A stretch of 64,000 bases of DNA from Salipaludibacillus agaradhaerens (GTDB lineage Bacteria > Bacillota > Bacilli > Bacillales > Salisediminibacteriaceae). The notes under the pieces are model-generated. The model was not told the origin of the DNA. It saw nothing but the letters and a program-made list of their open reading frames with translations, and ran no database searches. The stretch is from assembly GCF_002019735.1 (NCBI RefSeq), contig NZ_KV917378.1, positions 3,374,869-3,438,868 of the forward strand, in the 5' to 3' direction. Made by a program: the position numbers and the translations under genes. This document shows positions 39,668 to 63,668 of the stretch, in pieces. The stretch's first letter is position 1, and every line of letters begins with the position of its first letter.

Positions 39668-41112
39668 ACTGGGCAGTTGTAGTACCATTAATTATTTTTT
39701 TCTTTATAATATTTGGCGCGGGATTTTGGTCATTGCGATTTGTAAAGAAATCGAATCAGTTTTTACATGAATATTTTCTTGGTAGCCGAGAGTTAGGTGG
39801 CTTTGTCCTTGCAATGACAATGATAGCGACATATGGAAGTGCAAGTAGTTTCATTGGGGGACCTGGAGCTGCTTATACTCAAGGACTAGGTTGGGTTCTT
39901 CTTGCAATGGCACAAGTAGCCACAGGTTATTTTGTTTTGATGGTACTGGGAAAAAAATTTGCTATTTATGCGCGAAAGTATGATGCGGTAACGTTAATTG
40001 ATTTTTTAAGGATGCGTTATGCAAATAGCCGTGGCGTTGTTTTTATATCAGCAGCAAGTATCATTATCTTTTTATTTTCAGCGATGGTGGCTCAGTGGGT
40101 AGGTGGTGCCAGGTTAATCGAATCACTTACAGGACTAGAATATACAACAGCATTATTTATATTTGCAGTGACAGTTCTAATTTATGTCATAATCGGGGGT
40201 TTTAGAGCGGTCGCGTTAACGGATATGATCCAAGGCATCGTAATGGTGTTTGGCACACTTATTATTTTAATTGGTACCATTGTGGCGGGAGGCGGTATCT
40301 CTGCCATTATCACTGATTTGGCAACAGAAAATCCAAATCTAATATCCCCATTTGGGCATGATGGTGGCTTAACACCAGCTTATGTCTCCTCCTTCTGGAT
40401 TCTAGTTGGTGTAGGGGTGTTAGCTTTACCTCAAGTCGCAGTGAGAGCTATGTCGTATAAAAATGCCCGTTCTATGCATAGAGCTCTCATTGTTGGTACG
40501 TGCGTCGTAGGATTTATTATGCTTGGTATGCATTTAATTGGTGTATTTGCAAGACCTGTTATGCCAGGCATTGACGTCCCTGATAAAGTGATGCCATTAA
40601 TCACAATGGAAGTTCTACCACCTTGGTTGGCGGGCATGGTGTTAGCGGCCCCTTTGGCTGCTATTATGTCTACAGTGGATTCGCTTTTACTCATTGTCAG
40701 TTCAGCAGTTGTGAAAGATATCTATTTAAATTACATAAACCCAGATGCGGAAGAGAAACGGGTAAGGCGTATGAGCCTATGGGTGACGTCTCTTCTAGGA
40801 GTGGCTATTTTCACTGCGGCCCTCAGTCCGCCTGATTTACTCATTTGGATGAATTTATTTGCTTTTGGAGGATTGCAATCCGCTTTTATTTGGCCAATTG
40901 TGATGGGGCTTTACTGGGAAGGCGCTAATAAGTACGGTGCCATAACGTCTATGCTGACAGGGATTATTAGCTATGCATGTATTCATAACCTTTACCCGCA
41001 CATGTTGGGTGTGCACACGGTCGTCTTCCCTGTTATTTTTTCCTTCATGACATTTATCATTGCCAGTTGGTTAGGAAAAGAGAAGGAGTTACGCCCCTTG
41101 AAATCTGCATAA
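39664..41112 (+). CDS. panF: Sodium/pantothenate symporter PanF
   Basis: A 482-residue member of the sodium:solute symporter family with about 13 membrane segments. Signatures are FLGSRELGGFVLAMT, ATYGSASSFIGGPGAAYTQG, the VIIGGFRAVALTDMIQG segment and AAIMSTVDSLLLIVSSA. The paired YhdT gene upstream and the GPGAAYTQGLGW segment favour pantothenate over proline as substrate. It overlaps yhdT by 4 bp and ends with a strong terminator. Confidence 0.92.
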   Translation: MNWAVVVPLIIFFFIIFGAGFWSLRFVKKSNQFLHEYFLGSRELGGFVLAMTMIATYGSASSFIGGPGAAYTQGLGWVLLAMAQVATGYFVLMVLGKKFAIYARKYDAVTLIDFLRMRYANSRGVVFISAASIIIFLFSAMVAQWVGGARLIESLTGLEYTTALFIFAVTVLIYVIIGGFRAVALTDMIQGIVMVFGTLIILIGTIVAGGGISAIITDLATENPNLISPFGHDGGLTPAYVSSFWILVGVGVLALPQVAVRAMSYKNARSMHRALIVGTCVVGFIMLGMHLIGVFARPVMPGIDVPDKVMPLITMEVLPPWLAGMVLAAPLAAIMSTVDSLLLIVSSAVVKDIYLNYINPDAEEKRVRRMSLWVTSLLGVAIFTAALSPPDLLIWMNLFAFGGLQSAFIWPIVMGLYWEGANKYGAITSMLTGIISYACIHNLYPHMLGVHTVVFPVIFSFMTFIIASWLGKEKELRPLKSA

Positions 41113-41316: not shown

Positions 41317-41460
41317 TATTCTTAGACGTATATTGTAAGAGCTAAATAAAGAAAATGGCTAAATTTACAAGTGGATAAGCTCTCAAGAATAATAGAGGCC
41401 AATACACTGGTTTGCAAAATGCGTTATGATGAAGACCAATCTAAAAAGGAGGTTTTAAAA

Positions 41461-41964
41461 ATGGCCAAGAGGCTGTCGGTGTTCGTCGGGGTATTGTTTG
41501 TGTCATTGTATGTGTTTCAGGTGACGACTAACATTCCAGATGTTCATTCGGTGAGATTTCAGGACCCTTTGTTACAAGCTGACAGCGGAAGTGAGTTAGA
41601 GACTATGAACAACCAGAAAGATGTGTATGGAGATCCTTCTTTTGGACGTTGGCAGGAGAACAGTCGTGAAACAGTGGTTATTAGCAGGCAGGGAGACGTA
41701 TATGTGCATACTGGAAGCAGTAAGACAGTCGCGAATTCTAATAACCATTTACAAAATGTATATCCGTATCAATTACCGGCCATGACTGACACGGACACTA
41801 AAGCACCCATTCTCCGCTACTTTGATCACATAATTGTTATGATTTTAGAAGAGTTAAGTATGGCAGTAGTCATTGGAGTATATATGTTCTGTAGATTTCA
41901 GTATTTAAGGCGGCAAAAAGAGCAGGAGAGTTTAGACCAATTACCTTTCATCTTTTGGAAATAA
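41461..41964 (+). CDS. Small two-TM envelope protein of unknown function
   Basis: A 167-residue protein with an N-terminal signal/anchor segment (about residues 6-22), an external loop of about 100 residues and a C-terminal membrane segment (about 122-142) followed by a basic tail. The ATG at 41461 has AAGGAGG upstream; an in-frame ATG or GTG 90 nt earlier lacks one. I recognise no family. It is monocistronic with a terminator. Confidence 0.6.
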   Translation: MAKRLSVFVGVLFVSLYVFQVTTNIPDVHSVRFQDPLLQADSGSELETMNNQKDVYGDPSFGRWQENSRETVVISRQGDVYVHTGSSKTVANSNNHLQNVYPYQLPAMTDTDTKAPILRYFDHIIVMILEELSMAVVIGVYMFCRFQYLRRQKEQESLDQLPFIFWK

Positions 41965-41978
41965 TAAAGCCCCCCCTT

Positions 41979-42008
41979 TTTGCAGATGATCTCTGCAACT
42001 TTTTTTGT
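41979..42008 (+). terminator. Terminator after the two-TM protein gene
   Basis: TTGCAGA / TCTGCAA around a 5-nt loop, then CTTTTTTTG. Confidence 0.8.
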
Positions 42009-42378
42009 TTAAAAGTAATAAAAAAGCGTTGATAGAAACTGTTAGCAAGGTGAAAGGGAAATTAACATAGCATTTTCTTTTAAAGTGACTAGATGTCGTT
42101 TTTTATTTTATACGTCTATACATATTTTTTTAGATATTTCTTCATACTTGTTGTAGATTTTATGAGAAAAGAGTGAATACCACGTCTTATTGAATTCAAA
42201 TTATTTCTAATATAGTATAATAGAGGGTAGTTATAAACTGATATTGTTTTCAACTAAGAAGTTAGTAACCTCTGCTGCTGAGAAAATAGTTTATTCCTCG
42301 TATTTTATTGGCGTTCAATTAATTCAAAAAGAAAAGAAGTCAAAGCTAAATGAGCTTTGACCCTATTGATTCTTGAAC
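42009..42378. other. AT-rich intergenic region, 370 bp
   Basis: Apart from the terminator of the divergent peptide gene (42322-42361), no gene or repeat is recognised. Confidence 0.5.
42322..42361 (-). terminator. Terminator of the PapR-like peptide gene
   Basis: On the minus strand GTCAAAGCT / AGCTTTGAC forms a perfect 9-bp stem with a 5-nt loop, followed by TTCTTTTCTTTTTG. It lies 17 nt beyond the peptide stop codon, so the peptide has a dedicated short transcript. Confidence 0.88.
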
Positions 42379-42507
42379 TTAAAAAGAATCTGGTACACTG
42401 TGCTGATTAGGTAAATCTTTTACCGCAAAAGCGTCTCCTCCACTAAATGAAACAATTCCACCAAGTAGTATCGTCACAACACCTAACGCCATAAAATATT
42501 TTTTCAT
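42379..42507 (-). CDS. PapR-like secreted signalling peptide precursor
   Basis: A 42-residue ORF with AAGGGGGTGA 4-5 nt upstream of the ATG and its own terminator. It begins MKKYFMALGVVTILLGG, a Sec signal peptide whose likely cleavage follows AFA at residue 28. That releases a 14-residue tail, VKDLPNQHSVPDSF. This is the layout of PapR and NprX pheromone precursors: short, exported, with an active C-terminal heptapeptide. It is divergent from the PlcR-like regulator gene 96 bp away. The arrangement differs from papR and nprX, which lie downstream of their regulators on the same strand. The active peptide, perhaps the last 5-8 residues, is inferred. Confidence 0.72.
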   Translation of the reverse strand: MKKYFMALGVVTILLGGIVSFSGGDAFAVKDLPNQHSVPDSF

Positions 42508-42603
42508 TATGTCACCCCCTTTATCTAATCTACAATTTGACAGGCTGCTTAAAGTTCCAAAGGTGCATTCTCATTTAACTATTAATTTAGGAGGGAATTG
42601 ATA

Positions 42604-43482
42604 ATGAATTATGAGTTAATAGGCGAAAATATAAAGATGTACAGAGAAAAAGCAGGGATGTCACAGACAGACTTGGCTGACGGTATTTGTTCTCAAGCAC
42701 AAATTAGTCGAATCGAAAAAGGGGAAGTCATACCATTAAGTACGACGCTTTACCAAATAGCGAAAAAGCTAGAAATTGATATAAATGATTTCTTTAATAT
42801 GGCCCACTACAAACGATTTGACTACATTAACGAAGTGAAAAACGAGATACGAAAGTCTATTAGATTGAAAGACTATCGGACAGTTTATGATATAGTGAAT
42901 AGTGAAAAAAGAAATGCCGTTTTTTCTTCCCTTGAGCATCAGCAATTTTTAATGTGGCATGAAGGTATTTCAAGTTATTATCTAAAGAAAGGATTCCGCA
43001 GGTCTCTTGATGTCCTGCTAAAATCTTTACAATTAACTCGTTCAAAAGAGAAAACTCTTTATTCGGCAACTGAAATTGAGATACTCAATAGTATTGGGAT
43101 TATTTTCAATGAAGAGGGAGAGTTAACCCTTTCAGTTCAATATTATGAGCAGGCACTGAGAGAAATGCATAAATGTCAAAAGAAAATGGATTTAACAAAA
43201 ATTAGAGTCTATTATGGCTTAACAAAATCGTTAACGGCACTTGGTAGACACCGTGATTCATTTGCCTATGCTCAAAATGGCATCCGCCTCTGTGCACAAT
43301 TAGAAAGTTTATATTTATTGGGAGAGTTGCATTTTCAAGCTGGCATGAACTGTTTTCATATGAAACAATTAAAAAAGTCAGGAGTTCATTTATATAAAGC
43401 ACAATTAACTTTTGAAATTATGGATAATGATGAATATGTGGAGATTATTAAAGCGAATATTAAGGAGCTATTCCCTGTTTAA
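42604..43482 (+). CDS. PlcR-like RRNPP-family quorum-sensing regulator
   Basis: A 292-residue cytoplasmic regulator with an N-terminal HTH (about residues 5-60, CSQAQISRIEKGEVIP) and a TPR superhelix of about five repeats. Length and phrases such as QQFLMWHEGISSYYLKK parallel PlcR (285 residues; QFLQWQYYVAAYVLKK). RRNPP proteins bind a re-imported signalling peptide in the TPR groove and then change DNA binding. The ATG at 42604 has AGGAGGG 8 nt upstream; a TTG at 42598 is in frame. It is divergent from the small exported peptide gene at 42379-42507, its probable ligand source. Target genes are unknown. Confidence 0.85.
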   Translation: MNYELIGENIKMYREKAGMSQTDLADGICSQAQISRIEKGEVIPLSTTLYQIAKKLEIDINDFFNMAHYKRFDYINEVKNEIRKSIRLKDYRTVYDIVNSEKRNAVFSSLEHQQFLMWHEGISSYYLKKGFRRSLDVLLKSLQLTRSKEKTLYSATEIEILNSIGIIFNEEGELTLSVQYYEQALREMHKCQKKMDLTKIRVYYGLTKSLTALGRHRDSFAYAQNGIRLCAQLESLYLLGELHFQAGMNCFHMKQLKKSGVHLYKAQLTFEIMDNDEYVEIIKANIKELFPV

Positions 43483-43700
43483 TAGCATGGTTCAACTGAA
43501 GTGTAACGCTTCTTTGCAATAGGCATGTTTTGTGGCGTCTGATGACTATTTAAATTTATTAGTTCGCTGGAGGTGAAAGGTTTCGTAGTAAAGGGACCTA
43601 TTTGACAGCCCTTTTCCATATAACCCCCTTTTGAATGACACTATGAAAAGAATTTGCCCTTTTCAACGTCGTTAAAAAAAATTATAATCAGACTATAAAA

Positions 43701-43715
43701 AATATTCAGAACTTT
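43701..43715. promoter_or_regulatory. CodY-box-like sequence upstream of putP
   Basis: AATATTCAGAACTTT matches the CodY consensus AATTTTCWGAAAATT at 12 of 15 positions, about 50 bp before putP. CodY control of proline uptake is known in B. subtilis. The match is by eye and unproven. Confidence 0.35.
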
Positions 43716-43763
43716 GAAGAGAGGCATAAACAGCCAGACTAAAAGGAGAGGGGCTAAACTCAT

Positions 43764-45251
43764 ATGGTAGAAAATTTAACACCAATTATTATTACTTTCA
43801 TCGTATATCTCGTGGCTATGATGGCGTTAGGGGTAATCGCCTACCGATTGACAACGAATTTATCAGATTATGTACTAGGAGGACGGAAGCTTGGAGCAGG
43901 GGTAGCAGCATTGTCCGCTGGGGCATCAGATATGAGTAGCTGGCTATTGCTTGGGCTTCCCGGCGCACTTTATGCAGGTGGGCTTGTTGAAGCGTGGATT
44001 GCTATTGGATTGGGAATCGGAGCATTTATCAACTGGCAATTTGTAGCGGGACGTCTGAGAGCTTATACAGAATTAGCGAATGACGCCATTACACTACCGG
44101 ACTTTTTTGAGAATAGATTTGCTGATAAGTCTCAATCGTTACGCATCGTATCGGCATTGCTCATCTTAATTTTCTTTACGTTTTATACATCCGCTGGATT
44201 AGTGGGAGGTGCTATATTATTTGAGAACTCATTTGGACTAGATCAAGGGTTGGCGTTGTGGATTGGCGCTCTCGTCATTATTGGTTATACGTTTATGGGA
44301 GGCTTTCTTGCTGTAAGTTGGACAGATTTCGTTCAAGGCATCTTAATGTTTTTAGCTCTTATCGTTATACCGATTGTGGCTATTGTAGATTACGGCGGCT
44401 TTGGTGCAACCTTTGAGCAAATAAGAAGCATGGATCCAGACAACCTTAATTTAATGGGAGGGGTCGGTGCCATAGGGATTATTTCCTTATTAGGTTGGGG
44501 ACTTGGCTACTTTGGTCAACCTCATATTATCGTTCGCTTCATGGCGATTCGATCAATGAAAGAGATACCTAAAGCAAAAGCTATTGGTATCTCATGGGTG
44601 CTCCTTTCTATGTTTGGGGCAGTTATGACTGGTCTTGTAGGGATTGCTTATTTTGCTGACCAACCACTTGAAAATCCAGAAACGGTCTTTATTGCTTTCA
44701 CACAAGTATTATTTCATCCAATCGTAGCTGGTATATTACTTGCCGCTGTATTAGCTGCTATTATGAGTACGATTGATTCGCAACTACTTGTCTCCTCATC
44801 AGCACTTGCAGAAGATTTTTACAAAGGAATCATTCGAAAAAATGCAAGTGATAAGGAACTTGTCCTTGTAGGACGAATAGGCGTCTTAGTTATTGCGATT
44901 ATTGCACTTATATTGGCACAAAATCCTGACAGTACCGTCTTAGATCTTGTGGCGAATGCTTGGGCTGGTCTAGGAGCGACATTTGGACCTCTCATTCTAT
45001 TCTCACTTTTTTGGAAGCGAATGACACGAAATGGGGCTCTAGCAGGAATGATTTCTGGAGGAGGAGCCGTGTTTATATGGATTACTTTTTTGAAAGCAGA
45101 AACAGGCTTTTTCTCACTATATGAATTAGTCGTAGGGTTTTTCATTTCTTCCATCATGATTATTTTATTTAGCTATTTTAGTGCACCACCGTCACCTGAA
45201 ATCACAAAAACATTTGATCGTGCGAGAGAAATGGATAAGAAGCGATTATAA
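43764..45251 (+). CDS. putP: Sodium/proline symporter PutP
   Basis: A 495-residue sodium:solute symporter with about 13 membrane segments. PutP hallmarks are LGGRKLGAGVAALSAGASDMSSWLLLGLPGALYAGG near the start (conserved across residues 36-72), YTFMGGFLAVSWTDFVQG, and AAIMSTIDSQLLVSSSALAEDF. The substrate is proline, imported as nutrient or osmoprotectant, which suits a salt-adapted host. AAAGGAGAGG lies upstream. It is monocistronic with a terminator. Confidence 0.95.
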   Translation: MVENLTPIIITFIVYLVAMMALGVIAYRLTTNLSDYVLGGRKLGAGVAALSAGASDMSSWLLLGLPGALYAGGLVEAWIAIGLGIGAFINWQFVAGRLRAYTELANDAITLPDFFENRFADKSQSLRIVSALLILIFFTFYTSAGLVGGAILFENSFGLDQGLALWIGALVIIGYTFMGGFLAVSWTDFVQGILMFLALIVIPIVAIVDYGGFGATFEQIRSMDPDNLNLMGGVGAIGIISLLGWGLGYFGQPHIIVRFMAIRSMKEIPKAKAIGISWVLLSMFGAVMTGLVGIAYFADQPLENPETVFIAFTQVLFHPIVAGILLAAVLAAIMSTIDSQLLVSSSALAEDFYKGIIRKNASDKELVLVGRIGVLVIAIIALILAQNPDSTVLDLVANAWAGLGATFGPLILFSLFWKRMTRNGALAGMISGGGAVFIWITFLKAETGFFSLYELVVGFFISSIMIILFSYFSAPPSPEITKTFDRAREMDKKRL

Positions 45252-59650: not shown

Positions 59651-60646
59651 TTGGATAAGCCTGTTATTGAAGTTAAGCATTTGCAGACGCATTTTGTGAC
59701 GGATAGAGGCACAGTTCCGGCTGTAAATGATGTAAGTTTTACTATTCATCAAGGGGAAGTACTTGGCATTGTTGGTGAATCCGGATGTGGGAAAAGTGTC
59801 ACATCACTATCTATCATGGGACTTCTCCCCCAGCCACCTGGCCAAATCAAAGGTGGGGAGATTTTGTTTCGTAAAAAAGATTCAGATGAAGAAACGCCAG
59901 AAAATCTTCTTAATTTAAGTAAGCGTAGGATGAGGCAAATGCGAGGAAATGATATTGCAATGATTTTTCAAGAACCAATGACATCTCTTGATCCTCTGTA
60001 CTCAATAGGCGCACAATTAACCGAAGCAATAAAGAATCATCAACAGATGTCGAAAAGCGCTCGTATTCAAAAAGCTATTTCTATGTTAAAACTAGTCGGT
60101 ATCCCTCGAGCGGAAGAAGTTATTTATGATTATCCTCACCAGCTTTCAGGAGGGATGAGGCAGCGAGTCATGATTGCGATGGCGATGGCATGTGATCCGG
60201 AAGTCCTGATTGCAGATGAACCGACAACCGCATTAGATGTAACGATCCAAGCTCAAATTCTTTCGCTCATGAAGACGTTAAATCAGACAGAGAAAACAGC
60301 TATATTATTTATTACTCATGATTTAGGGGTGGTAGCAGATATATGCCACCGGGTCATTGTTATGTATGCTGGGAAAATAGTAGAACAAGGCGATGTGAGG
60401 AACATACTTAAAGCACCAAAACATCCCTACACAAGGGGATTAATTCGATCATTACCGAAATTAACTGATAAGAAAAAACGGCTCTATTCCATTCCTGGGA
60501 ACGTTCCAAAACCAGGTTCTGTCATCCAAGGATGTTTGTTTGCTGAACGATGTGAGGAAGTGCTTGATGACTGTTTGAAGGATGAGCCGAAGCTTCTGTC
60601 ATTGGGAGATGACCATCAGTGTCGTTGTTTTCTTTATCAAAGATAA
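59651..60646 (+). CDS. appD: Oligopeptide ABC importer ATPase (AppD/OppD type)
   Basis: A 331-residue ABC ATPase of the peptide/nickel class. It has Walker [10 protein letters not shown]-loop [11 protein letters not shown], signature [16 protein letters not shown], Walker [14 protein letters not shown] and the C-terminal oligo-HPY extension with its Cys pattern ([15 protein letters not shown]). The TTG start has AGGGGG upstream at normal spacing. The gene order ATPase-ATPase-binding protein-permease is that of B. subtilis appDFABC rather than oppABCDF. Its stop codon TAA lies in the first bases of repeat copy I. A cre-like site upstream suggests carbon control. Confidence 0.92.
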
Positions 60647-60762
60647 CTGTCTGTCAATTTCCCCGCTTCCAATTAGAGGAGAGCGACATCTATTTAGGTG
60701 GAGCTAACGGCCAGTAATGTTCCGATTTATTCAACTATCAATCAGTGGGAGAAGAGCGAATG
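60636..60762 (+). repeat. Dispersed two-hairpin repeat family, copy I (intra-operon)
   Basis: Begins TCAAAGATAACTGTCTGTCA within the last codons of the first ATPase gene, whose TAA it contains. Hairpin 1 returns as CATCTATTTAGGTGGAGCTAACGG. The left arm of hairpin 2 (CAATCAGTGGGAGAAGAGCG) is present, but the right arm and 3' end are replaced by other sequence. It separates the two ATPase genes of the operon. Confidence 0.8.
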
Positions 60763-60865
60763 GTAAGTGAACACAAAGACAATGGGTGACACAGCAGCAA
60801 CGATAGAATTGAAGAGCTAATAGTGACAAGGCTATTACTCAAGCTAAAGGTAGGTGCCGTTTAAA

Positions 60866-61855
60866 ATGTCTGAACCTTTACTCAAAGTTCAACATTTAAA
60901 AAAGTGTTTTGATACAAGGGGAGGTGTTTTCGCTCGGAAAACTGGTGAAATAAAGGCTGTGGATGACGTTTCGTTTAGTGTTAAAAGAGGAGAAGTCCTT
61001 GGTATTGTAGGGGAATCAGGTTGTGGAAAGTCAACGATGGGAAGAACGCTCTTAAAGCTAATAGAGCCAACCGCTGGAAAAATCGTGTTTGATGGGAGAG
61101 ATGTCACGTCCTTTTCACCACGAAAGATGCGATACATGAGACGCAATATGCAGATGATCTTCCAAGATCCATACGCTTCCCTTAATCCACGTCATAAAGT
61201 AGAAAAAATTATAGGTGAACCATTACTTGTTCATGGAATAGGAGATGCAAAAGAAAGAAGAAAGCGAGTTAGTGAGATGTTAGAAGTAGTAGGTTTATCA
61301 AACGATCAAGGAAAACGCTATCCTCACCAATTTAGTGGGGGACAACGACAAAGGATCGGTATTGCTAGAGCGTTAGTCGTAAATCCGAAGCTAATTGTGT
61401 GCGACGAGCCGGTCTCAGCATTAGACGTGTCCATCCAGTCGCAAATCTTAAATCTGATGGAGGATCTCCGTGAAGCATTTAATTTAACATATATTTTTAT
61501 TGCTCATGATCTCAGTGTGGTAAAACACATCAGCCATCGAATTGGCGTTATGTATTTAGGAAGAATGGTAGAGCTCACAAGTAATGACCACCTTTACAAC
61601 GAGCCGTTGCATCCCTATACGCAATCATTACTTTCTTCCATACCAAATCCTGACCTAGACGCTAAACGTGAACAGATTATTTTGCAAGGAGAAGTGCCAA
61701 GTCCATCCAATCCTCCAGGAGGTTGTGCATTCCATCCAAGGTGTCCAGCGTGCATACCTATTTGTGAATCTGTCCGACCTGAATTTCAAGAAATTTCTGA
61801 AAATAGATTTGTCGCCTGTCACCTGTATGACAGTCAGACGATTTCTAACGATTAA
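60866..61855 (+). CDS. appF: Oligopeptide ABC importer ATPase (AppF/OppF type)
   Basis: A 329-residue ABC ATPase of the OppF branch: Walker [25 protein letters not shown], signature FSGGQRQRIGIARALV, Walker B LIVCDEPVSALDV and an oligo-HPY tail with GGCAFHPRCPACIPIC. The ATG at 60866 has AGGTAGGTG 9 nt upstream; a GTG at 60854 overlaps that site. It pairs with the preceding ATPase as a heterodimer powering peptide uptake. The 219-bp gap from the first ATPase is mostly repeat copy I. Confidence 0.93.
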   Translation: MSEPLLKVQHLKKCFDTRGGVFARKTGEIKAVDDVSFSVKRGEVLGIVGESGCGKSTMGRTLLKLIEPTAGKIVFDGRDVTSFSPRKMRYMRRNMQMIFQDPYASLNPRHKVEKIIGEPLLVHGIGDAKERRKRVSEMLEVVGLSNDQGKRYPHQFSGGQRQRIGIARALVVNPKLIVCDEPVSALDVSIQSQILNLMEDLREAFNLTYIFIAHDLSVVKHISHRIGVMYLGRMVELTSNDHLYNEPLHPYTQSLLSSIPNPDLDAKREQIILQGEVPSPSNPPGGCAFHPRCPACIPICESVRPEFQEISENRFVACHLYDSQTISND

Positions 61856-61991
61856 AATTTTTTTTTTGCCACCGGTACGGTATTTACCCGGAAAACGAGT
61901 CTAATCATACCGAGAATGCTTTTAGAACGTGATTAAACAGAGAGAGATGTTCAACAAATATTATAAAAAGAAACTGAAAGGGGACTAAAAG

Positions 61992-63668
61992 ATGTTACGT
62001 CTGGCCGCGTTAATAGGAGTGGTATCAGTTGGTTTATTTGTTACGGGTTGCAATAATAATGACAATGAGGTAACGATGGAGTCTAATGACAGTAACGACC
62101 ATGAAGTGAACGACCACAATGACTTAGACAATGAAGGAAATGAACTTTCTGCAGATCAAACATTAATTTTCGCCCGAGGAGGAGATTCTGTTAGTCTTGA
62201 TTATGCTAGTGTCACAGATGGCGAGTCTTCCCGTGTGACAACACAAATTTACGAGACGTTAATTGAATTTGATAATAATTCGTTTGATATTGGTCCAGGA
62301 CTCGCAGAAGACTGGGATATGGAGGAGGGCGGATTGGAATACACGTTCTATTTAAGGGAAGGTGTGACGTTTCATGATGGGACACCATTTAATGCTGACG
62401 CCGTGAAACTAAACTTTGAGCGATGGGCTGACCCTAATCATGAGTATCACTTTGCCGAGGAAGGTTATACGTACAGCGTTTATGGGACACAGTTCGGTGG
62501 CTTCAGTGGTGACGAGGACCACGTGATTGAGGAAATAAACGTCATAAATGACTATGAAATTCAATTTGTGTTAAAAGAACCATTGGGGTCCTTTATGCAA
62601 AATATGGGTATGAGCTATTTCGCTATTACCTCCCCAGCTGCATTTGAAGAGTATGGACCATTAATTAATGAAAATCCTGTGGGAACTGGGCCATTTAAGT
62701 TTGTGAGTTGGAGCCGTGATGATCGTATTGTATTGGAGAAAAATGAAGCGTATTGGCAGGACGGTTATCCGAAGCTTGATCAGGTCATTTTTCAAGTCAT
62801 TCCAGACAATGCCGCTCGGCTGACAGCACTTCGTTCCGGAGAAATTGATATTATGGATGGACTCAATCCAGATGATGTTCCCGTCCTTGAAGGGGAGGCG
62901 GGCATTCAAGTATTTGAAGGTGCAACTAATAATGTCGGATATTTAGGTTTTCACGTGGATAAAGAGCCGTTTAATGACCCTGCTGTTAGGCAAGCGCTAA
63001 ATTATGCCATTGATAAAGAAACGTTAATTATGACACTTTACGCTGGTCTAGCAGAGCCTGCTAAAAATGCCGTGCCACCCGGATATCTCGGTTACAACGA
63101 TCATATTCAACCTTACGCTTATGATCCTGAACGTGCTCTAGAGCTATTAGCTGAGGCCGGTTATGAAGATGGCTTCGAATTTGACCTATGGACGATGCCT
63201 GTGTCAAGACCATACATGCACGATCCAGAAAAGGCAGCTGAAGTTATGCAGGCGAATTTTTCGGAGATTGGTCTGACTGCGAACATAGTGACGATGGAAT
63301 GGGCGACTTATTTAGAACGGACAGAGCAAGGGGAGCATGACGTATTTATGCTCGGCTGGTCAGGGGTAAATGGTGATCCAGATTATTTTCTAAGTAATCT
63401 TCTTCATGGAGATGCCATACCAGGAGGGAATAGAAGTTTTTACCAAAATGATGACGTGGATCGACTGTTAAATGAAGCAAAGCGACAAGTGGAAGAGGAG
63501 ACAAGAGCGGATCTGTACGAAGAAGCACAAAGTATCATCCATGAGGACGCGCCGATGATTCCGTTAGTTCACTCTACCCCTGTTCTTGCTGGTAGTGATA
63601 GCGTTAAAGATTATGTTCCACATCCTTCCACAAATGAAGTGTTGACACATGTGTATTTAGCTGACTGA
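61992..63668 (+). CDS. appA: Oligopeptide-binding lipoprotein (AppA/DppE-like)
   Basis: A 558-residue cluster-C substrate-binding lipoprotein. The signal ends in lipobox VTGC, followed by an Asn/Asp/Glu-rich linker. The SBP_5 body shows YETLIEFD, a VTFHDGTPFNADAVKLNFERW segment, NPVGTGPFKFVSW and DPAVRQALNYAIDKETLI. GAAAGGGGAC lies upstream of the ATG. It captures peptides at the cell surface for the permease encoded next. A hairpin follows the stop, which would favour higher mRNA levels for this subunit. Confidence 0.93.
   Translation: MLRLAALIGVVSVGLFVTGCNNNDNEVTMESNDSNDHEVNDHNDLDNEGNELSADQTLIFARGGDSVSLDYASVTDGESSRVTTQIYETLIEFDNNSFDIGPGLAEDWDMEEGGLEYTFYLREGVTFHDGTPFNADAVKLNFERWADPNHEYHFAEEGYTYSVYGTQFGGFSGDEDHVIEEINVINDYEIQFVLKEPLGSFMQNMGMSYFAITSPAAFEEYGPLINENPVGTGPFKFVSWSRDDRIVLEKNEAYWQDGYPKLDQVIFQVIPDNAARLTALRSGEIDIMDGLNPDDVPVLEGEAGIQVFEGATNNVGYLGFHVDKEPFNDPAVRQALNYAIDKETLIMTLYAGLAEPAKNAVPPGYLGYNDHIQPYAYDPERALELLAEAGYEDGFEFDLWTMPVSRPYMHDPEKAAEVMQANFSEIGLTANIVTMEWATYLERTEQGEHDVFMLGWSGVNGDPDYFLSNLLHGDAIPGGNRSFYQNDDVDRLLNEAKRQVEEETRADLYEEAQSIIHEDAPMIPLVHSTPVLAGSDSVKDYVPHPSTNEVLTHVYLAD

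Follow-up and report, generated by a model that had tools for sequence, protein, structure and literature searches.

The window, a 64-kb stretch (64,000 nucleotides) of Salipaludibacillus agaradhaerens DNA, contains a gene for a PlcR-type regulator and, transcribed away from it, a 42-codon ORF encoding a putative pro-pheromone. The features of both genes are collected in Table 1.

Table 1. Coordinates of the two divergent genes and of their known or predicted elements within the window.
Feature	Position	Strand	Basis
PlcR-type receptor-regulator (RNPP_C), 292 aa	42604..43482	+	ATG at 42604; Pfam, PDB sequence match, predicted fold
HTH_3 DNA-binding domain of the regulator, residues 10-62	42631..42789	+	Pfam
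RNPP_C peptide-binding (TPR) domain of the regulator, residues 79-283	42838..43452	+	Pfam
Ribosome site of the regulator, AGGAGGG	42589..42595	+	sequence
Divergent intergenic region of 96 bp, presumed shared control region	42508..42603	.	sequence
Ribosome site of the peptide gene, AAAGGGGGG	42515..42523	-	sequence; AAGGG or stronger in 7/7 orthologous loci
Pro-pheromone ORF of 42 codons, product MKKYFMALGVVTILLGGIVSFSGGDAFAVKDLPNQHSVPDSF	42379..42507	-	sequence, orthologs, codon-position bias
Signal peptide, residues 1-28, AFA end	42424..42507	-	cleavage predicted from motif
Predicted pheromone core KDLPNQH, residues 30-36	42400..42420	-	DLPNQH invariant 7/7; LPNQH in other genera
C-terminal SVPDSF, read as removable spacer	42382..42399	-	variable or absent in orthologs; Ser after core copies elsewhere
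Intrinsic terminator of the peptide gene, stem (42363-42337) and T-rich tail	42327..42363	-	terminator scan, folding

The original prediction of a PlcR-like HTH-TPR regulator at 42604-43482 was confirmed by Pfam, by sequence comparison and by the predicted fold. Matches to RNPP_C (PF18768, 82.1 bits) and HTH_3 (50.6 bits) both exceeded the Pfam cut-off; single TPR models stayed below it, and NCBIfam returned HTH-level matches alone, all below cut-off. Among solved structures, PlcR is the closest in sequence (2qfc, E 2e-25, regulator residues 2-286). Structure prediction from the single sequence gave a pLDDT of 40, and an input of three sequences was used instead, yielding an all-helical fold (mean pLDDT 86.9) that resembles TPR-type receptors. 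When the PDB was searched with this fold, the five best matches were all PlcR entries, and the rest of the list consisted mostly of ComR, Rgg2 and PrgX, which are all RRNPP receptors. The full-length rmsd to PlcR is large (5.6-8.0 Å), and hence no claim is made on domain orientation. In length, 292 aa, and in its TPRs the protein falls within the RRNPP receptor signature (about 250-500 aa, TPRs; PMC10075063), which further comprises Sec export of the propeptide and binding of the mature peptide to the receptor, with density-dependent changes in gene expression. The combination of HTH and RNPP_C domains with PlcR as the nearest solved relative places it in the PlcR subfamily.

The sequence contains the 42-residue ORF, the 96-bp gap, the AFA motif and the 14-residue tail VKDLPNQHSVPDSF as proposed, and a ribosome site ahead of each of the two genes. 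The product begins with what reads as a Sec-like leader (KK start, hydrophobic stretch, AFA motif), and [F/L]A precedes X[K/R]DLPNQH in 7/7 orthologous peptides. A small propeptide gene thus adjoins a receptor gene, the layout known from RRNPP systems. The private terminator that had also been proposed was recovered by a terminator scan; for 42322-42378 the folding energy is -19.6 kcal/mol, with a z of -5.3, a value equalled by 0/200 shuffles, and an inverted repeat of the CAAAG...CTTTG type is visible by eye at this place in 6/7 aligned loci. Only four ORFs in the window, the peptide ORF among them, passed a mechanical filter for secreted small ORFs. Promoter-like matches around the pair showed no excess (9, shuffle mean 7.8), a search of 41900-43900 against Rfam gave no match, and the NCBIfam match of the peptide to Phr_nterm (E 0.54) lay below cut-off.

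Conservation of the pair within Salipaludibacillus

The absence of a conserved 42-codon ORF beside orthologous regulators had been named in advance as grounds for abandoning the prediction. Such an ORF was found in 7/8 genomes of the genus (own included), once in each and always beside the orthologous regulator; in the eighth (G003), neither peptide nor regulator was found. The regulators are at least 67% identical, that of Salipaludibacillus daqingensis (L059) being 71% identical. DLPNQH is invariant in all seven peptides and is followed by SVPDSF, SVPDQG, SVPDFQ or SVPNFQ, or by nothing, as in L015, where the peptide stops directly after the His. When the window copy is compared in turn with the five other full-length copies, codon position 3 accounts every time for the majority of the substitutions (11/6/27 by position for L012, that is 27/44 at position 3). 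The six full-length copies form 15 pairs, and in 14 of them position 3 holds at least half of the changes; the sole exception is the closest pair, with 3 changes. With flanks of about 1.5 kb, a putP-like sequence follows the regulator in 5/6 loci of relatives. No putP was found in the L012 locus of this extent, where regulator and peptide stay linked. Beside the peptide gene, a 197-aa ORF (41371-41964) without a Pfam match is 91% identical in L010, weakly matched in L014 and not seen in the four remaining relatives within these flanks.

Gene order around PlcR-type receptors

RNPP_C matches were obtained in 29/35 genomes of the family, in 66/150 sampled genomes of the order and in 57/398 sampled genomes of the class. 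One match in genome G006 (L217, G006:C1:2910002-2910184) is short and interrupted by a TGA, apparently the remnant of a decayed receptor gene. From loci within the order, 179 distinct regulators were gathered, ORFs of fewer than 230 codons being dropped. Neighboring peptide genes were sought with a strict filter (28-60 aa, ribosome site, hydrophobic stretch, early K/R, at most 400 bp from the regulator), whose cut-offs were chosen post hoc, after the first candidates had been viewed, and were applied equally to the shuffle control. Around the 176 regulators with complete flanks, the filter returned 99 divergent, 11 convergent, 8 codirectional-downstream and 4 codirectional-upstream candidates. 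Where 400 bp of upstream DNA were available, a divergent secreted-peptide ORF was present at 100/178 regulators, against a mean of 1.8 (range 0-4) in 20 dinucleotide shuffles of the same upstream DNA.

This control also bears on whether the ORF in the window could be a chance reading frame within a divergent promoter. Although 76 ORFs of at least 30 aa overlap the surrounding 10 kb, the third-position bias, the invariant core, the gene's own terminator, its occurrence in 7/8 genomes of the genus and the excess over shuffled DNA render this explanation vanishingly improbable. Sequence comparison indicates that the small ORF is a real gene.

The median gap between divergent candidates and their regulator is 171 bp. 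His lies within the last three residues of 57/101 candidates (overall His frequency 2.6%), and a fixed motif, xxPxx[HYFWED], is found in the last 16 residues of 65/101. The cores are diverse; families of the APPxYTHG type escape the fixed motif, and a few candidates may not be pheromones.

papR and plcR lie on the same strand, and the divergent order had been called unusual in the original prediction. This view was not supported, since divergence is the commonest arrangement in the sample from this bacterial order (99/176 regulators with the strict filter), and an opposite-strand pair of the PlcR family, TprA2/PhrA2, has been described (PMC5436883). The predominance of divergence in the order is also in mild conflict with PMC9765709, where the pheromone gene of PlcR and of other Bacillales systems is placed immediately downstream.

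Examination at class level covered 29 loci (L219-L247). Together with plasmids, the class sample provided 33 regulators with full flanks, for which the strict filter returned 8 divergent and 4 convergent candidates, one of the latter not being pheromone-like. Most loci of one group in the class sample (L225-L242, group f62/g131) carry a convergent pro-pheromone gene at or nearly at the receptor stop, whose product repeats an LPxE[Y/F/H]-type core 2-8 times in tandem; the genomes concerned, conceivably of Exiguobacterium, hold 2-7 RNPP_C matches each, several of them in tandem arrays. Within the order, multi-copy precursors (L122, L119, L167, L157, L137) are codirectional-downstream or divergent and contain 4-6 copies.

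A looser filter combined with a core or repeat criterion was used to label the gene order of 214 regulators. Under the stricter labels, 100 were divergent, 28 convergent and 13 codirectional-downstream, including the chance-like ORFs of L107 and L162, and 73 had none; this labelling altered 24/214 of the earlier assignments (115 divergent, 25 convergent, 12 codirectional, 62 none), which were partly wrong. On a FastTree phylogeny of the receptors (215 rows), the three gene orders need 8 changes with the stricter labels, or 7 without PlcR, and 11 with the earlier labels, PlcR included, on a tree with several long branches and modest support. One set of identical receptors was divided between two groups. 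To judge from these sequences, gene order around the receptor is labile. No motif-bearing adjacent peptide was found for 62/214 regulators with one labelling or 73/214 with the stricter one, including L039, a paralog in the organism's own genome; consequently, an adjacent peptide cannot be presumed wherever an RNPP_C receptor occurs.

Among plasmids, 37 records matched; three of the 6 examined (L249, L251, L253) have a divergent candidate. L251 is plasmid pBpOF4-01 of Alkalihalophilus pseudofirmus OF4, where the receptor is accompanied by a divergent 37-aa candidate with the tail PLDLPYIHT, absent from the (incomplete) PLSDB gene list; YcaO and TOMM-precursor-binding genes lie nearby. Phage records yielded 3 matches at 24-26% identity. 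In viral contigs, a single-protein search gave no match, and an alignment search gave 17, one of them (L254) over its full length; the listed stretch upstream of L254 contains no divergent ORF of at least 28 aa.

Predicted pheromone core and receptor pocket

Many of the peptide tails resemble PapR ADLPFEF, and their cores (DLPNQH, DLPYEH, ELPPLH) align in register with PapR7 ADLPFEF and PapRa7 CSIPYEY. As in peptides of the PlcR subfamily, the product of the window gene has an LP-containing, PapR-like heptapeptide near its C-terminus, KDLPNQH, with six residues after it.

Multi-copy precursors show where the active core ends, which would otherwise be guesswork. The 26 such precursors, a count that leaves out 4 unparsed ones (one chance-like), contain 119 core copies, of which 7 end the protein; Ser follows 79 of the 112 others. 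In 5/26 precursors the commonest residue after the core is not Ser, and because the precursors are related, the core copies are not independent. In the window peptide, Ser stands directly after DLPNQH, and all 8 carriers of LPNQH outside the genus end exactly at the His. Since Ser commonly follows core copies and the LPNQH carriers outside the genus end at His, SVPDSF is probably a spacer and KDLPNQH, or DLPNQH, the signal, the exact site of trimming being predicted. PapRa7, too, lies inside its propeptide and not at the end of it (PMC3519770). The original prediction had sought the active peptide in any 5-8-mer of the 14-residue tail; the core does lie in this tail, but the choice narrows to what is probably (K)DLPNQH, with SVPDSF being spacer-like.

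The glutamate of PapR is reported to contact Lys89, Gln237 and Tyr275 of PlcR (PMC6568020). In the corresponding columns the window regulator has K89, E241 and Y278, and the peptide has Gln in place of the PapR Glu; PlcR Asn201 aligns with Gly205. Among 91 parsed pairs, peptide Gln occurs with receptor Glu in 21/23 cases and peptide Glu with receptor Gln/Asn in 21/29. In a ranking of 290 columns by covariation with peptide position 6, the PlcR columns K89, K87, Q237 and Y275 take ranks 2, 10, 36 and 129. The tree yields 3 independent receptor-peptide contrasts only, and covariation is confounded by descent; hence it is suggestive only, a lead and not a proof.

Proposed signaling scheme, targets and related systems

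The view that the locus holds an RRNPP-type pair, a PlcR-like receptor with a PapR-like propeptide bearing a Sec-like leader, is supported by the receptor family, the predicted fold and the conserved linked peptide. Very likely, the two genes form a one-component quorum-sensing system of the PlcR/PapR type. The 42-residue propeptide would be exported by Sec and cut after AFA, and proteases would trim off SVPDSF to leave about KDLPNQH, equivalent in size and register to PapR7 ADLPFEF. An oligopeptide permease would then re-import the peptide, whose binding to the TPR domain would enable the HTH dimer to occupy its operators, at least one of them probably in the shared 96-bp region. Export, trimming, re-import, TPR binding and altered DNA binding make up the PlcR/PapR scheme (PMC4147580). 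SBP_bac_5 is matched 8 times in the genome, once within the window. There, at 59651-63668, about 16 kb from the pair, two oligopeptide-ABC-ATPase-like genes (by eye) are followed by an SBP_bac_5 gene.

The sign of regulation could be the opposite, with the regulator acting as a repressor and the peptide relieving or reinforcing repression. Shared divergent promoters suit repression as well as activation, but the closest relative by sequence and by fold is PlcR, an activator whose binding to PlcR boxes depends on its peptide (PMC4147580), and repression therefore appears unlikely.

Four RNPP_C receptors are encoded in the genome, three with a divergent peptide and one (L039) for which no adjacent peptide was found; the divergent peptides of the paralogs L040 and L041 have the tails APPRYTHG and IFDYEH. 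With several such receptors and peptides in one cell, cross-talk is possible, and the core is common to other genera. The real ligand of the receptor might thus be another peptide, for example one of the genome's other two PapR-like products or the signal of a neighbor species, and the divergent ORF would encode a target product, for instance a small secreted effector. However, the peptide is linked to the orthologous receptor in 7/7 genomes that have it and its PapR-like core sits in the register that this receptor family would lead one to expect, making this arrangement very unlikely compared with a cognate pair.

Concerning targets, palindromes (6-mer, one mismatch, spacer 0-18) common to more than 2/7 ortholog intergenic gaps were not found, and the PlcR box TATGNAN4TNCATA showed no excess in the genome (13 sites; backwards control, 10), and its single exact occurrence in the window, at 40972, falls inside a symporter gene. 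The genes around the pair encode two SSF symporters, a DUF997 protein, a PnrA-like protein and a histidine kinase, with no demonstrated link to it. Consequently, no target can be named, as had been anticipated for the window; nothing was found in support of the suggested control of salt- or protease-related genes.

Like PlcR/PapR of the Bacillus cereus group, the pair combines an HTH and TPR receptor of about 290 aa with a short propeptide that has a Sec-like signal and an LP-containing core of heptapeptide size (ADLPFEF, here KDLPNQH), and 2/3 of the reported Glu-contact residues are kept. It differs in that the peptide gene is divergent, six residues follow the core and PlcR boxes are not enriched; in that system the distance from plcR to the downstream papR is 70 bp, and the heptapeptide forms the C-terminal end of the papR product (PMC4147580). 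In PlcRa/PapRa of B. cereus, the peptide gene is likewise upstream of the receptor gene and the core CSIPYEY is internal to the C-terminal part, further residues following it, but PapRa has 93 residues, unlike the 42-residue window peptide (PMC3519770). TprA2/PhrA2 of Streptococcus pneumoniae shares the PlcR-family receptor and the opposite-strand peptide gene, whose product has an active C-terminal heptapeptide; this heptapeptide, VDLGLAD, is without an LP core, and lantibiotic-type genes lie downstream (PMC5436883). Among the genes scanned beside the window pair, no lantibiotic-type genes were found. An Rgg/SHP system, which the original prediction had named as the better-known divergent case, does not fit: matches to Rgg and ComR are far weaker than those to PlcR by sequence and weaker by fold, and the leader of the peptide is Sec-like and its core polar.

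The kind of system is already known; opposite-strand genes in the PlcR family (PMC5436883), upstream placement for PapRa (PMC3519770) and tandem propeptides in the superfamily (PMC9765709, PMC11343458) are all published. RRNPP_detector reported 34 high-confidence receptor-propeptide clusters tabulated by gene orientation, its main text not containing the name Salipaludibacillus (PMC10075063), and a 2025 structural phylogeny also charts orientation (PMC12700828). Our literature search found neither the Salipaludibacillus system, nor the DLPNQH core (LPNQH being absent from the 3 papers checked for it), nor the predominance of divergence among PlcR-type pairs of the order; no paper joining PlcR-PapR with Alkalihalobacillus was retrieved, and papers retrieved for Salipaludibacillus and quorum were titled on other topics.

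Propeptides with an LPNQH core (15 of 152 parsed) occur in seven genera of the order, own included, and on a Niallia megaplasmid. The core is found in two gene orders: its gene is divergent in the window, whereas in L111, L117 and L121 it follows the receptor gene on the same strand. It is conceivable, if doubtful, that different Bacilli of saline and alkaline habitats respond to each other's signals by way of a single DLPNQH pherotype while the gene order flips around the receptor.
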